Below, one piece after another: positions 7,414 to 19,953 of a stretch of DNA of 64,000 nucleotides (within the stretch, counting starts at the first letter, position 1; the number at the start of each line of letters is the position of its first letter). Under the pieces are notes generated by a model that had not been told where the DNA came from, searched no databases, and worked only from the letters and a program-made list of their open reading frames with translations. The stretch comes from Calothrix sp. PCC 6303 (GTDB lineage Bacteria > Cyanobacteriota > Cyanobacteriia > Cyanobacteriales > Nostocaceae): contig NC_019751.1 of NCBI RefSeq assembly GCF_000317435.1, forward strand, positions 6,696,001 to 6,760,000. The letters are read 5' to 3'. Made by a program: the position numbers and the translations under genes.

Positions 7414-9084
7414 TTAAATTAAACAGTTGAGGATAGCCAGGAAGGAAGCAGTAACGATGTTAGAGTGGATGCCAACTCCATAGTTTATATTTGTCGAGGA
7501 ATTAGTTGTGATTTCCAGGAAAGCTACTGCTTGGGAATTGCTACCGCTAACAGGCAAATTACAAACATCCTGTAAGCTTCGTTCTTCGTAATTAACTACC
7601 TGAATTTCTCGATTACAACTATCATTTAAGCCGTTTATAAAGGCATCAATTGGTCCGTTACCAACACCATGAATGGTAATTTCTTCCCCGTACATTTGTA
7701 ATTGTGCCACTAATACCTGTTGATTAGTATCAGTTTCGTTGATTTGGTGAGAAATGTATCTCCATGATGTCCCGGTTTGGATATATTCACTCTCAAATAA
7801 TTTCCACAAATCACTTGAAGAAATTTCTTTTCCATGTATTTCTACAAATTTTTGTACAACTCGACTAAATTGAATTTGCCAATTTCGCGGTAAAATCAAA
7901 CCATAATCCCGTTCCAGCAAAAACGCTAATCCTCCTTTACCAGATTGGCTATTTACCCTCACAATCGACTCATAATTTGACCCCACATCAACAGGATCAA
8001 GTGGTAAATAGGGAATTTCCCAGATATCTCCTGGTTTTTGCACAGCAAAGCCTTTTTTAATGGCATCTTGATGAGAACCGGAGAATGCCGTAAATACCAA
8101 ATCACCAGCGTAGGGATGTCGTGGATGGATAGGTAACTGGGTACAACTGGTGGCAATTTCTGCCACTTCAGCCAAATTGGAAAAATCTAAACCAGGGTGA
8201 ATTCCTTGGGTGTACAAATTCAAAGCTAAAGTTACCAAATCAACATTTCCAGTTCTTTCTCCATTCCCAAACAAACAACCCTCTACCCTCTCTGCACCTG
8301 CCATTTGGGCAAGTTCGGCAGCAGCAACAGCACAACCTCTATCGTTGTGAGTGTGGACACAGAGAATTACGTGATCCCGCTGTTTGATATGACGATGCAT
8401 CCACTCCACCTGATCTGCGAAAATATTGGGAGTTGCCATCTCCACAGTTGCTGGGAGATTAATAATCACCTTTTGTTGCGCTGTAGGTTGCCATACATCT
8501 ATAATGCGATCGCATATCTCTTTGGCAAACTCCAATTCTGTACCCGTGAAGGTTTCTGGGGAATATTGAAATTGCCACTTGGTTTCCGGTTGGTTTGCGG
8601 CTAATTCGGTAATTAACTTCGCGGCATCAACTGCCAGTTTAATTGTATTTTCCCGGTCTAAACCAAAAACTACACGCCGAAATACAGGTGAAGTTGCATT
8701 ATACAAATGAACAATTGCTTTTTTAACTCCCCGTAAAGCTTCAAATGTGCGACGAATTAACTCTTCCCTTGCAGGTGTTAATACTTGAATTTTCACATCA
8801 TCGGGAATTAAATTATTTTCAATCAAATATCTAACAAAATCGAAATCAGTTTGTGAAGCGGATGGAAAAGCAACTTCGATCTCTTTAAATCCAATCTTAA
8901 CCAATAAGCTAAACAGCTTTAATTTCTGCTGAATATTCATCGGTTCAATTAACGCTTGATTTCCATCCCTTAAATCGGTACTCAACCAAATTGGAGGATG
9001 TGTAATAGTAGTATTTATCCAGGTTCTATCAGTTAAGTTAACTGGATTAAATGAACGGTATTTAGTCGCAGGATGAGTCAACAT
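7414..9084 (-). CDS. leuA: 2-isopropylmalate synthase (~560-aa actinobacterial/yeast-like class)
   Basis: The enzyme condenses acetyl-CoA with 2-oxoisovalerate, the first dedicated step of leucine synthesis. Visible motifs are STDLRDGNQAL at 35-45 (the HMGL-like metal/acetyl-CoA site), HTHND at 244-248 (metal ligands) and GNGERTGN at 273-280. The C-terminal ~130 residues form the LeuA allosteric domain that normally gives leucine feedback inhibition. The sequence around RSFNPVNLTDRTW and WLSTDLRDGNQAL resembles the longer Corynebacterium-type LeuA rather than the shorter E. coli type. The start ATG at 9084 lies inside the last codons of an upstream leucine-rich ORF (9078-9242), and it has only a weak purine-rich stretch upstream, so translational coupling is likely. 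The gene appears intact. Confidence 0.95.
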   Translation of the reverse strand: MLTHPATKYRSFNPVNLTDRTWINTTITHPPIWLSTDLRDGNQALIEPMNIQQKLKLFSLLVKIGFKEIEVAFPSASQTDFDFVRYLIENNLIPDDVKIQVLTPAREELIRRTFEALRGVKKAIVHLYNATSPVFRRVVFGLDRENTIKLAVDAAKLITELAANQPETKWQFQYSPETFTGTELEFAKEICDRIIDVWQPTAQQKVIINLPATVEMATPNIFADQVEWMHRHIKQRDHVILCVHTHNDRGCAVAAAELAQMAGAERVEGCLFGNGERTGNVDLVTLALNLYTQGIHPGLDFSNLAEVAEIATSCTQLPIHPRHPYAGDLVFTAFSGSHQDAIKKGFAVQKPGDIWEIPYLPLDPVDVGSNYESIVRVNSQSGKGGLAFLLERDYGLILPRNWQIQFSRVVQKFVEIHGKEISSSDLWKLFESEYIQTGTSWRYISHQINETDTNQQVLVAQLQMYGEEITIHGVGNGPIDAFINGLNDSCNREIQVVNYEERSLQDVCNLPVSGSNSQAVAFLEITTNSSTNINYGVGIHSNIVTASFLAILNCLI

Positions 9085-9242
9085 ATTCGTTTATACTTTC
9101 TTTTTTGATGATGGTAAATAGAAGACGTGGCGAAATATTGAAAAGAGTAAATCGGGTTGTCAAATTGCCACAAAGACCGCACATGACAACCCATAATTAG
9201 TCGTAGTAATACTTCAAATTTTAGGTTTAGATATAGTTGCAT
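9078..9242 (-). CDS. Leucine-rich leader peptide ORF upstream of leuA (candidate)
   Basis: The 54-codon ORF starts at an ATG (9242-9240) preceded by GGAG at a 6-base spacing. It begins MQLYLNLKFEVLLRLIMG: six of the first 15 codons are Leu, five of them CTA and one TTA. The stop TGA (9080-9078) overlaps the leuA start, within ATGTTGA. Clustered rare Leu codons with a good ribosome-binding site just before a leucine biosynthetic gene are the hallmark of leuL-type leader peptides in other bacteria. In this case the ORF continues through the hairpin at 9154-9192 to the start of leuA, which suggests control of leuA translation by coupling as much as transcription attenuation. The function is inferred; the ORF and codon pattern are seen directly. 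Confidence 0.6.
   Translation of the reverse strand: MQLYLNLKFEVLLRLIMGCHVRSLWQFDNPIYSFQYFATSSIYHHQKRKYKRIC
9154..9192 (-). promoter_or_regulatory. leuA: Hairpin in the leuA leader
   Basis: In the leuA mRNA, GGGTTGTCA (9192-9184) pairs perfectly with TGACAACCC (9162-9154) around a 21-base loop. It lies immediately after the leucine-codon cluster of the leader ORF and about 70 bases before the leuA start. A ribosome stalled on the Leu codons would reach or mask the 5' arm. The downstream sequence is only moderately U-rich, so a classical terminator is not evident. Confidence 0.5.
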
Positions 9243-10771
9243 AAAATTCTCCAAGCTAGTTATAAGTAATAGCAATCAAAAAAATCACATACAGCAGATT
9301 TTAGGTAAATCAATCAACCCGTGGAGACGGGATGTATCGCGTCTTTCTTTATATCTCGCTGCTAAATTTTACCCTCTCAGTTTTTTAGTTTTTTCGAGTC
9401 AGTTCGTTAACTTAAAATATTGAATCTAAAAACAAGAAATTACATTAGGGTGAATAGATGAACGAGCCTAAAAAATTTTACTAACCTGCACTACGCACGA
9501 TAGCACCCTATCTATGTATATAGGTTCTTTAGCTCTAGCACTACCAGAATTTGACAATTAAAGCCTTTAAACTCATATTTAATAGCGAAAATTATAAGCC
9601 AATCAAATATTTGTTCAACTCTAATTAATCACTATTCAATTGGAAAAAACTTAATTAACCCGCAAATTTACAAGCATAGTAGTTGTACCGAACCTAGTAA
9701 TAGGCTGGAAACTACTTGTAGAGATAGCTGCTTAGTAAACATGACTTTAGTGATTAATAACATAGCTAATATACTAAACACAAAATTAGTTATTTTGTCA
9801 AGTAAATTTTTATATACAACTAAAAAGGTAGGGGGATAAATCCGACACTGCCTCAAAATTAACTATTCGACTCAAAATGCTTGGTAAGGACATAGCTTGC
9901 TTCTCTGCCTCAGAGTACGCTTAACGAACTTTGAGGGTTTAAGTCCCCTGCCTCTACAGTCAGTCCGTTTTGTGACGGGGATTTTACCCTGACACAAAAC
10001 TTACTTGCGACTTGTTTTAATTAAACCCCTAACCTATGTCGTATTCTTTTAACGCTGCGCTACGCCTTTCTTGGATGCCCGAAAGGGCTATACAGCTGAC
10101 CCTACGTAATTAGACAAAGTGGTAAAATTTTTGATACAACAGTTTTGTAACCTTTAACACATTAAATTGAGTCAAAACCCTATCATAATCAGCAGCGGGA
10201 AACATTCTTTTAACGAAGCCAAATTCTCACCAAGCATATTAAGCTTCAGTCCCTTGACTGTAGCAATTTGTCAATACCTTTTTAGAGGAGAAATCGACCA
10301 TTTATAGAATAGAAGTAGTATTTGCTACATTGAATGATGGTATTAGTTGGAGCAAAATATTTAGTTGATGACTTAAAAATCTTTTTGATTCCTCAATAAA
10401 TATGCTAGTTGATGTACTGATTAAATTCACTTTATGAGTTACAAACATCAGTAGGCATAAAAAAAACTATACAGAAAAAGATATTAAATACGTATAATCA
10501 CTGAATATATTTTTGACTTAGGTGGTGATAACTTTAAAAAAAAAATCTCCAAAAATCGGCAACGAATGTTACAGTAGAGCGATTTACTTTGAGAAATTAA
10601 CTTAGTTTGGCGGACAATAGAAACAAAATATTATCAATCCAGGATCTGTGGGGAAAAATGCATAATAGAAAATGTGAATTGAGGAGAGCGAATTTAATAT
10701 ACTAACGGAAACTAAATCTTTTAAATATCTTATACACCTCAGTCCGACTAAGCTAATCGAGTAAATTTAGA
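9243..10771. other. Long gene-poor region with repeat remnants
   Basis: About 1.5 kb of AT-rich DNA has no convincing gene. Visible items are a short hairpin AGACG...CGTCT at 9325-9344 followed by a T-rich stretch; an inverted repeat GTTTTGTG...CACAAAAC near 9967-10000 next to GGGTTTAAGTCCCCTGCCT (similar to 42229-42248); a GCCCGAAAGGGC hairpin motif at about 10078-10089 that recurs in the array at 55.8-56.06 kb; and the presumed promoter region of the following regulator gene. These look like decayed dispersed repeats. Confidence 0.5.
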
Positions 10772-18411: not shown

Positions 18412-18412
18412 T
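18233..18412 (-). CDS. Small ORF (59 aa) coupled to the RT stop codon, single-pass membrane peptide
   Basis: The ATG (18412-18410) overlaps the RT stop codon as TGATG, a classic translational-coupling arrangement. The peptide starts MSDVRIITSESVSCIRM and ends in a hydrophobic segment (LDLLKLILGVVVVVIIT) followed by RQARL, so it would be a single-pass membrane peptide. I do not recognise the family. The overlap favours coding; the strong hairpins in the same DNA favour an RNA role. Both could be true. Confidence 0.4.
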   Translation of the reverse strand: MSDVRIITSESVSCIRMIAGSPGYNSSGAHVIKLPLGLDLLKLILGVVVVVIITRQARL

Positions 18413-19953
18413 CAATATAACCAACTATCATCTCTCTCTAACTCTGATAAATTTCTCTGCTTAATAGCCTCAAATAACTTTTCAATTTCTTCTCCTGAGT
18501 ATTCTTTCTCAGGCTCAAGATGCCCTCTTTGTCCAAGAAAATCGCTTTTTTGCTTGACTGTTTGGTAACTATTATAGTCATGTATATAACCACCTTCAGG
18601 ATTATACTTAGCCTCATAAAAAGCTCGTGAAATTTTTTTTAAGTTAGCGGGAGGAATTCTATCAAAATCTTCCAATCTCTTAAATAAGCCAGCAATTATA
18701 TTATCTATCTTGTAGAGTACAGACATGTCATTAATAGCACTAAAGTAAAAGATCCAACCATATTTTCGTTTTTCACTAATAGCACCGGTAATTTTTTCAT
18801 TTAAATTAACAACAAAATTTTCTTTTAACTTATCCACAGCATACTTCGACTGTAAATTTTTTGTTCGATTATGGATGTAACTGCTAAATTTAGCAGTTAT
18901 TGAATGAATAAACCTTTCTATTGTAGATAACCTAATTGTAACTGTAGGTAATTTAAAGCGATATCCAAGATATTCAAACTCTTCTTGACCGCTCTTTTTG
19001 TATGTTTTATTGAAGTTGCAATTAAGGTCGATATTTTTCAATTCACTTTTAAATAATATTTCTATTTTGTCAATTTTATCTTTTTCAGAGAAAATTAATA
19101 TGTCATCTACATATCGATAATAGACATTAACGCAATTATGATTTTTTATGAGATGATCAAAATCATACAAGTAAATATGTGCAAGAATATTTGATATGGA
19201 TAAACCTTGTGGTATACCTATACCTTTAGATTCCTTAACATATTCTTTTCTGTCTTTTCGGCTATAATTATTAGGAACAATAGGTGTTTCGATAGCTTTT
19301 TTAATTAATGATAATAGTTTATATGATTTTATTCGTTTTTTTAATTTTATGAATAACTTTTCTCTATTAATTGATCCATAAAAATTTTCTACGTCTGCGC
19401 GAAGTATACTAACTTCGGAAGGTGATCTACTAGAAACAAATTTTTTAATATCATAAATATAGGTATTAGCTAATTTACGTGGAACACAGTCTGGAAATAT
19501 TTGAAATAGAATTTCTTTTAATGCATATAAAACAATTCTATCACGCACTGTTGGAATTGCTAGGAGCCTTGGAGGCTTATCTCTTCCTTTAGATCGCAGT
19601 AATTCTAGATAGGGTGAAAATCTATATGTTCCATTCAAACACTTCTTCTTGATTACTTTAAACTGTGACTTACTTTGCTTTCTAAATTGAATACCGCTAA
19701 GTCGGTCAATACCTTTAGTTGTGCTCGATTCAAATTTGTCATCATAAATTTTCTTCAAAGATTTTATTTTGACAGAAGATTTTAGTAATTCATAAGGTGT
19801 TTGAGAGAAATGGGACGAACATAAGGAACTAGGATGAGAGACATTCTTGTCTTTCTCGACTTTTTCTGGCAAATCTAATGCCACTTGTATTTGGGATGTA
19901 TTGCTCATCTTAGAAAAAATAGATAACTTTGGGCTATCAACATATTTACCCAT
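18412..19953 (-). CDS. Reverse transcriptase, SLATT-associated (likely antiviral DRT/Abi-type)
   Basis: The 513-residue RT has recognisable palm motifs: RLLAIPTVRDRIVLYAL (129-145), motif A RADVENFYGSI with D187, GIPQGLSIS (246-254), catalytic YVDD (281-284) and EYLGYRF (327-333). No maturase X domain, HNH nuclease or CRISPR context is visible, so it is unlikely to be a mobile group II intron protein. No retron-type NAxxH element or msr/msd is obvious either. About 160 helical C-terminal residues follow the RT core. The neighbour encodes a SLATT protein, a pairing known for antiviral RTs. The gene is AT-rich and inserted between core cyanobacterial genes, which suggests horizontal acquisition. 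ATG at 19953 is used; an internal ATG 15 codons later is possible. Confidence 0.88.
   Translation of the reverse strand: MGKYVDSPKLSIFSKMSNTSQIQVALDLPEKVEKDKNVSHPSSLCSSHFSQTPYELLKSSVKIKSLKKIYDDKFESSTTKGIDRLSGIQFRKQSKSQFKVIKKKCLNGTYRFSPYLELLRSKGRDKPPRLLAIPTVRDRIVLYALKEILFQIFPDCVPRKLANTYIYDIKKFVSSRSPSEVSILRADVENFYGSINREKLFIKLKKRIKSYKLLSLIKKAIETPIVPNNYSRKDRKEYVKESKGIGIPQGLSISNILAHIYLYDFDHLIKNHNCVNVYYRYVDDILIFSEKDKIDKIEILFKSELKNIDLNCNFNKTYKKSGQEEFEYLGYRFKLPTVTIRLSTIERFIHSITAKFSSYIHNRTKNLQSKYAVDKLKENFVVNLNEKITGAISEKRKYGWIFYFSAINDMSVLYKIDNIIAGLFKRLEDFDRIPPANLKKISRAFYEAKYNPEGGYIHDYNSYQTVKQKSDFLGQRGHLEPEKEYSGEEIEKLFEAIKQRNLSELERDDSWLY

Follow-up and report, generated by a model that had tools for sequence, protein, structure and literature searches.

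A conserved leucine-rich leader with a predicted pseudoknot upstream of the accessory long-form leuA gene of the cyanobacterium Calothrix sp. PCC 6303

INTRODUCTION

Does a short leucine-rich reading frame that runs into a leuA gene of Calothrix sp. PCC 6303 control the expression of this gene, and by which device may it do so? The window, a stretch of 64,000 nucleotides of contig NC_019751.1, carries such an arrangement, and all features described here are located on its minus strand. The original prediction, made from the sequence alone, compared it with the leuL attenuators of enterobacteria and actinobacteria and suggested control by ribosome stalling and translational coupling. According to a survey published in 2016, reliable data on attenuation in cyanobacteria did not exist (PMC4833913). 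In the freely readable literature searched, no cyanobacterial leuA leader had been described. Some of the proteobacterial leaders treated below may already be listed in an attenuation survey by Lopatovskaya et al. from 2010.

RESULTS

The leuA gene and the reading frame in front of it

The gene at 7414..9084 encodes a 2-isopropylmalate synthase, as originally predicted, with the refinement that it is the long form of this enzyme (TIGR00970; 774 bits versus a cut-off of 697). Since the usual short-form leuA is also present in the genome, the long-form copy is an accessory one; in a sample of 391 genomes of the order, just 18 had the long form. Upstream of the canonical short leuA, no leucine leader was found in four genomes, and the short leuA of Calothrix sp. 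PCC 6303 has none. Elsewhere in the window, an open reading frame at 18412..19953 with the motif YVDDIL resembled a reverse transcriptase by eye.

The proximal leader, designated “leader 2,” comprises 54 codons (9242..9078), starting with MQLYLNLKFEVLLRLIMGC and ending with KRIC in front of the stop codon; its full translation is MQLYLNLKFEVLLRLIMGCHVRSLWQFDNPIYSFQYFATSSIYHHQKRKYKRIC. The Shine-Dalgarno site GGAG (9249..9252) is followed 6 nt further on by the ATG, and the spacing GGAG-N6-ATG is conserved in the alignment of relatives. Six leucine codons, five CTA and one TTA, are among the first 15 codons; CTA represents only 12% of the leucine codons in the genes of the window, and at least six leucine codons were found in 0.6% of the open stretches of an ATG plus 15 codons, counted in the window only. 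The “sensor” codons TTA CTA CGA CTA (9198..9209) encode Leu-Leu-Arg-Leu. At the other end, the stop codon TGA (9080-9078) overlaps the leuA start codon in ATGTTGA (9078..9084), and most relatives have (A/G)TGTTGA or TGTTAA at this position. Reading frame, ribosome site, number of leucine codons, and overlap were thus all found in the sequence as they had been described. The Shine-Dalgarno site of leuA itself is weak in the window and reads AAGGA in most relatives. The fold energy of the leader region alone is unremarkable (z of 0.05); the case for leader 2 is its conservation.

Conservation of leader 2

Upstream regions from 10 relatives, 80 loci of named genomes, and 11 further loci were compared. 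About 40 cyanobacterial loci, as well as Zoogloea, have leader 2 ahead of the long-form leuA, with the GGAG site, the codons CTRCGACTR, and the peptide “GCQ,” which is encoded by the 5′ arm of a stem described below, as the conserved parts. The core, consisting of the Leu-Arg-Leu codons and this stem, could be aligned nearly without gaps in 30 sequences, including those of Zoogloea and of a metagenome-assembled genome (MAG) of the Moraxellaceae. The four sensor codons specify leucine in 22 of 30, leucine in 28 of 30, arginine as CGA in 30 of 30, and leucine in 30 of 30 sequences, and synonymous leucine codons interchange. The pentamer CGACT inside the Leu-Arg-Leu codons was invariant in the 30 aligned loci, and it is the same from alphaproteobacteria to cyanobacteria (L148, L150, L167-L169, and L172, in addition to the window). 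Not merely arginine but the codon CGA itself is retained.

Downstream of the stem, the frame of leader 2 was open in 21 of 25 nonredundant loci, compared to 7.2 expected from shuffled sequences, and the other two frames in 16 and 8 loci. In most of these 25 loci, the stop codon overlaps the leuA start codon. This overlap is partly forced by the N terminus of LeuA, which is Met-Leu followed by a residue with a codon starting with A; the genuine argument for translation of leader 2 is its open frame. A programmed −1 frameshift fusing leader 2 to leuA was considered and rejected: there is no slippery heptamer at the Leu-Arg-Leu codons, and only 8 of 25 loci have an open leuA frame ahead of the leuA start codon.

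A covariance model of leader 2, R1, was built without the actinobacterial and alphaproteobacterial loci described below. It matched the Calothrix genome exactly once, at leader 2 (E value of 7e-15), and 42 of the loci screened. Among 386 cyanobacterial genomes, matches were found in 4, each of them a carrier of long-form leuA, with one copy per genome and only in front of this gene. No family of Rfam 15, including the leader families, matched the leader region, and no relative was found among viral contigs.

Three cyanobacterial groups possess a long-form leuA without leader 2. In the Phormidium-type loci L049, L130, and L133, the proximal leader is lost and a distal leader is kept. In a tree of LeuA proteins, those of cyanobacteria cluster in a single group whose sister is the beta- and gammaproteobacterial one. 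Leader 2 is present on both sides of the deepest split of the cyanobacterial group and also outside of it, which suggests a probable ancestral presence followed by several losses, such as those in Nodosilinea, Adonisia, and the Phormidium/L130 group. Taken together, leader 2 is almost certainly a functional and conserved leader element. The original prediction of a genuine leucine leader running into leuA in a cyanobacterium has held, since leucine codons, hairpin, and overlap are all kept in the aligned upstream regions of the relatives.

The hairpin belongs to a predicted pseudoknot

The perfect 9-bp stem of the original prediction is present in the window, formed by the 5′ arm GGGTTGTCA (9184..9192) and the 3′ arm TGACAACCC (9154..9162). 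It begins 5 nt after the last leucine codon, a distance that is fixed among the relatives. Across the alignment, 94.5% of its cells were paired, more than in any of 500 shuffles or in any slid version, and four pairs had changed on both sides in a compensatory manner. The hairpin is thereby conserved, but it is only one part of the structure: a second helix had been overlooked, and the stem is helix 1 of a predicted H-type pseudoknot.

The last five loop bases before the 3′ arm, GTGGC (9167..9171), are complementary to a downstream GCCAC (9127..9131) in the window and in most loci. With the position of the loop strand fixed, it paired with the downstream 60 nt better than with shuffled sequences in 21 of 22 loci (Wilcoxon P value of 1.4e-6) and also better than another segment of the loop did (8e-5). 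Since the 3′ strand was placed by the MAFFT sequence alignment, the value of 89.1% paired cells in helix 2 refers to the MAFFT-placed columns, with the six unplaced loci being excluded from the count. Five cells had changed on both sides, compared to 0.7 in shuffles, and none of 500 shuffles reached the covariation score; three pairs had changed on both sides, as in GCAGC/GCTGC and TCGC/GCGA.

A distal leucine leader preceded by a conserved promoter pattern

A second leucine-rich reading frame, “leader 1,” which was absent from the original prediction, is located at 9742..9668 and encodes MFTKQLSLQVVSSLLLGSVQLLCL; it was matched by a second model, R2, in its own genome with an E value of 7e-8. 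Leader 1 sits 140 to 710 nt further upstream than leader 2 across the loci, has a consensus ending in SSLLLGLGLLLRLGRK, and is present in nearly all screened cyanobacterial long-form leuA loci. All 12 of the 12 tested genomes with a long-form leuA gave an R2 match in front of this gene (E values of 1e-8 or better), and genomes without this gene gave only weak matches (1e-3 or worse).

Just upstream of leader 1, a promoter pattern TTGAC(C)-N17/18-TANNAT was found in 27 of 33 loci, compared to 3.45 expected. The window has the −35-like hexamer TTGACA (9796..9801) at the conserved position, with a weak −10 site. A hairpin directly follows the leucine run in 28 of 33 loci, ranging from TGCGCC-GGCGCA through compensated variants to TGCCC-GGGCA, and 24 of 33 loci agreed with a stricter rule that asked for 5 bp or more, of which four or more were GC pairs. 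The U run begins several nucleotides past the stem, and the stop codon is downstream of the hairpin. As RNAalifold returned only three pairs on the leader 1 alignment, this hairpin was judged by direct inspection. It is absent from the window and the nearest clade, where it has been lost.

With promoter, leucine run, hairpin, and U-rich tail in most relatives, leader 1 is the part of the region that resembles a leuL attenuator, and transcription attenuation is the leading idea for its function. For leader 2, the same explanation would mean that stalling at the leucine codons shifts the RNA between an antiterminator and a terminator hairpin. The leucine codons do adjoin a hairpin, a distal leader with attenuator features is nearby, and an alternative stem formed by GGGTTGTCA and TGGCAACCT is 88.5% paired in the relatives. 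This stem showed no covariation beyond that of shuffled sequences and had little predicted weight, so it was rejected as a switch although it is conserved, and no terminator-like site (0) was present around or after leader 2 in the window. A leuL-type attenuation by leader 2 is consequently unlikely, and the likeness to the enterobacterial leuL proposed in the original prediction could not be sustained for this leader, which has neither a terminator-like site behind it nor an Rfam leader match.

Related leaders in other phyla

Long-form leuA genes on plasmids and chromids were used as a source of actinobacterial and alphaproteobacterial loci. A conserved “LEU element” of leuA has been reported from Actinobacteria only (Seliverstov et al. 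2005, PMC1262725), and recognizable LEU elements were present in Nocardia (MQRALLLGRRDGV), Nonomuraea (MLRGLLLSCRGGGL), Microbacterium (MQFGLLLLSCRDESSD), and Tsukamurella (MQWRALLLGCRGGV). Alphaproteobacterial leaders with the CGACT motif were found in Rhizobium (VALRLSRGRRA and stop), two Shinella, Ochrobactrum, Sphingomonas, and Tistrella, and R1 matched Cupriavidus (E value of 4e-6), Rhizobium (6e-4), and, weakly, Shinella (0.04). In 14 loci examined, the best stem started 10 to 17 nt after the start of the leucine motif, mostly 13 to 15 nt, and a possible second helix ended a few bases from the 3′ arm in most of them; these helices were selected as the best pairing in a search and are only suggestive. 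For the layout shared by Actinobacteria and proteobacteria, the stem begins 12 to 17 nt past the first base of the leucine motif. The actinobacterial parallel drawn by the original prediction is a close one: leucine run and pseudoknot form the architecture of the LEU element.

In Actinobacteria, Cupriavidus, and most alphaproteobacteria, the stop codon of the leader is located within the 5′ arm or shortly behind it; in Zoogloea and usually in cyanobacteria, the leader reads on to leuA. The leuA genes of Cupriavidus (L100, L105, L106, L109, L113, and L149) have a related short leader with the end LSLPIGCRA and stop inside a similar pseudoknot. In those from proteobacterial MAGs (L103 and L107-L114), CTGCGACTG precedes another type of stem and a possible pseudoknot, and some of these loci would permit pairing of the leucine codons with GCAGTCGC further downstream. 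A base stem between the leucine codons and the Shine-Dalgarno site of leuA was rejected as a general feature: the mean duplex energy was −9.4, compared to −9.7 for shuffled and −8.9 for swapped sequences, and such a stem was found only in Zoogloea (z of −4.2) and locus L126 (z of −2.1).

The discoverers of the LEU element proposed a protein binding site and a co-occurrence with an ML1624-like helicase (PMC1262725). If leader 2 were such a site, the leucine codons would be incidental, which would agree with the conserved pseudoknot and with the Streptomyces leuA leader, where, in the portion of PMC1262725 that cites earlier work, changes of leucine codons are said not to have acted as in classical attenuation. 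The identity of the leucine residues survives synonymous codon changes, and the spacing between leucine codons and stem varies little across three phyla; both would be expected for a ribosome and not for a protein ligand, making a protein site improbable here.

The leader product itself may alternatively arrest the ribosome as a peptide (LLRLxxGCQ) or serve as a small protein with its own function. The residues GCQ and LRL are highly conserved, and related peptides, LSLPIGCRA and LRLSRGRRA, each followed by stop, and LLLGCRGG, occur in other phyla. The GC[QR] residues are encoded by the 5′ arm of helix 1, so that pairing alone could preserve them, and the downstream peptide is poorly conserved and shortened in other phyla, which leaves very little probability for this explanation.

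DISCUSSION

The leading interpretation, which we hold to be somewhat probable, is that leader 2 senses leucine in cis for the accessory long-form leuA, in the form of a LEU-like, ribosome-sensing translational leader overlapping leuA. Ribosome stalling and translational coupling, as proposed in the original prediction, fit the anatomy of the leader, and leucine dependence and direction of control are inferred here. A ribosome decoding the last leucine codon would meet a structure located 5 nt downstream, and the predicted pseudoknot begins at just this distance. Ribosomes would translate leader 2 and, when leucyl-tRNA is scarce, wait on the leucine codons with their front edge on helix 1. A waiting ribosome would stay off the leuA start, leaving the ribosome site of leuA free for new initiation events. 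With plentiful leucine, the ribosomes would pass, unwind the pseudoknot, run over the leuA start, and terminate on it, resulting in less leuA initiation. This occlusion would have the expected sign, a leucine shortage raising leuA. Against this interpretation speak the weak Shine-Dalgarno site of leuA in the window, the three cyanobacterial groups whose long-form leuA has no leader 2, the partly forced overlap of stop and start, and the reported behavior of the leucine codon changes in Streptomyces. In most relatives, leader 1 at the promoter end may add a separate, probably transcriptional check, which appears to be worn down in the clade of the window.

Sequestration of the leuA ribosome site was rejected as an output, since its predicted accessibility did not change consistently between the free and the stalled states across the relatives. 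As there was also no terminator after leader 2, the output may run via ribosome traffic and not via a second hairpin, and traffic is what remains after the negative tests for terminator, accessibility, and base stem.

Ribosome traffic could also act in the opposite direction. In a termination-reinitiation coupling, leader 2 would serve as an antenna, the finishing ribosomes would restart at leuA, and pseudoknot and leucine codons would only tune the flow, so that a shortage of leucine would give less leuA. Reinitiation at leader genes has been proposed generally (PMC4833913), and the overlap of stop and start in most leader 2 loci would suit it. The sign, however, is wrong for a leucine-making enzyme, most relatives have a separate AAGGA ribosome site for leuA, and the alpha- and betaproteobacterial and actinobacterial leaders stop inside the pseudoknot, far from leuA. 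Coupling by reinitiation is therefore doubtful compared to occlusion of the leuA start.

The comparison provides strong evidence for leucine leader control in cyanobacteria and a link to the enigmatic actinobacterial LEU element, and it shows that in Cyanobacteria, Proteobacteria, and Actinobacteria alike, an architecture of leucine codons and a pseudoknot accompanies the long form of leuA. With the constant spacing between leucine codons and pseudoknot, the old question of a ribosome or a protein as the signal of LEU elements becomes directly testable. As a tentative extension, which we consider possible but would not yet favor, this may be a leucine sensor novel to cyanobacteria, with a pseudoknot at the ribosome entry, traffic over the leuA start as the output, a two-step gate together with the distal attenuator, and an ancient companionship with long-form leuA in three phyla.

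Among the known systems, the LEU element is similar in its place directly upstream of long-form leuA, in the leader reading frame with a leucine run, in the pseudoknot directly after this run at about equal leucine-to-stem spacing, and, in the four actinobacterial loci compared, in the second-helix strand just before the 3′ arm. It differs by a base stem between the leucine codons and the leuA Shine-Dalgarno site, which the cyanobacterial form does not have, and its leader stops inside the pseudoknot, whereas the cyanobacterial leader usually passes through and overlaps leuA. The cyanobacterial form also has LRL with the invariant CGACT and the second, distal leader. The leuL leader of enterobacteria likewise is leucine rich and ahead of leuA; leader 2 differs in having no terminator, no supported antiterminator, and no Rfam match. 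The tandem attenuators of Salmonella mgtCBR (PMC3641672) share the arrangement of two short reading frames in one long leader and differ in signals, genes, and mechanism, while both reading frames in the cyanobacterium are leucine rich and their control is putative.
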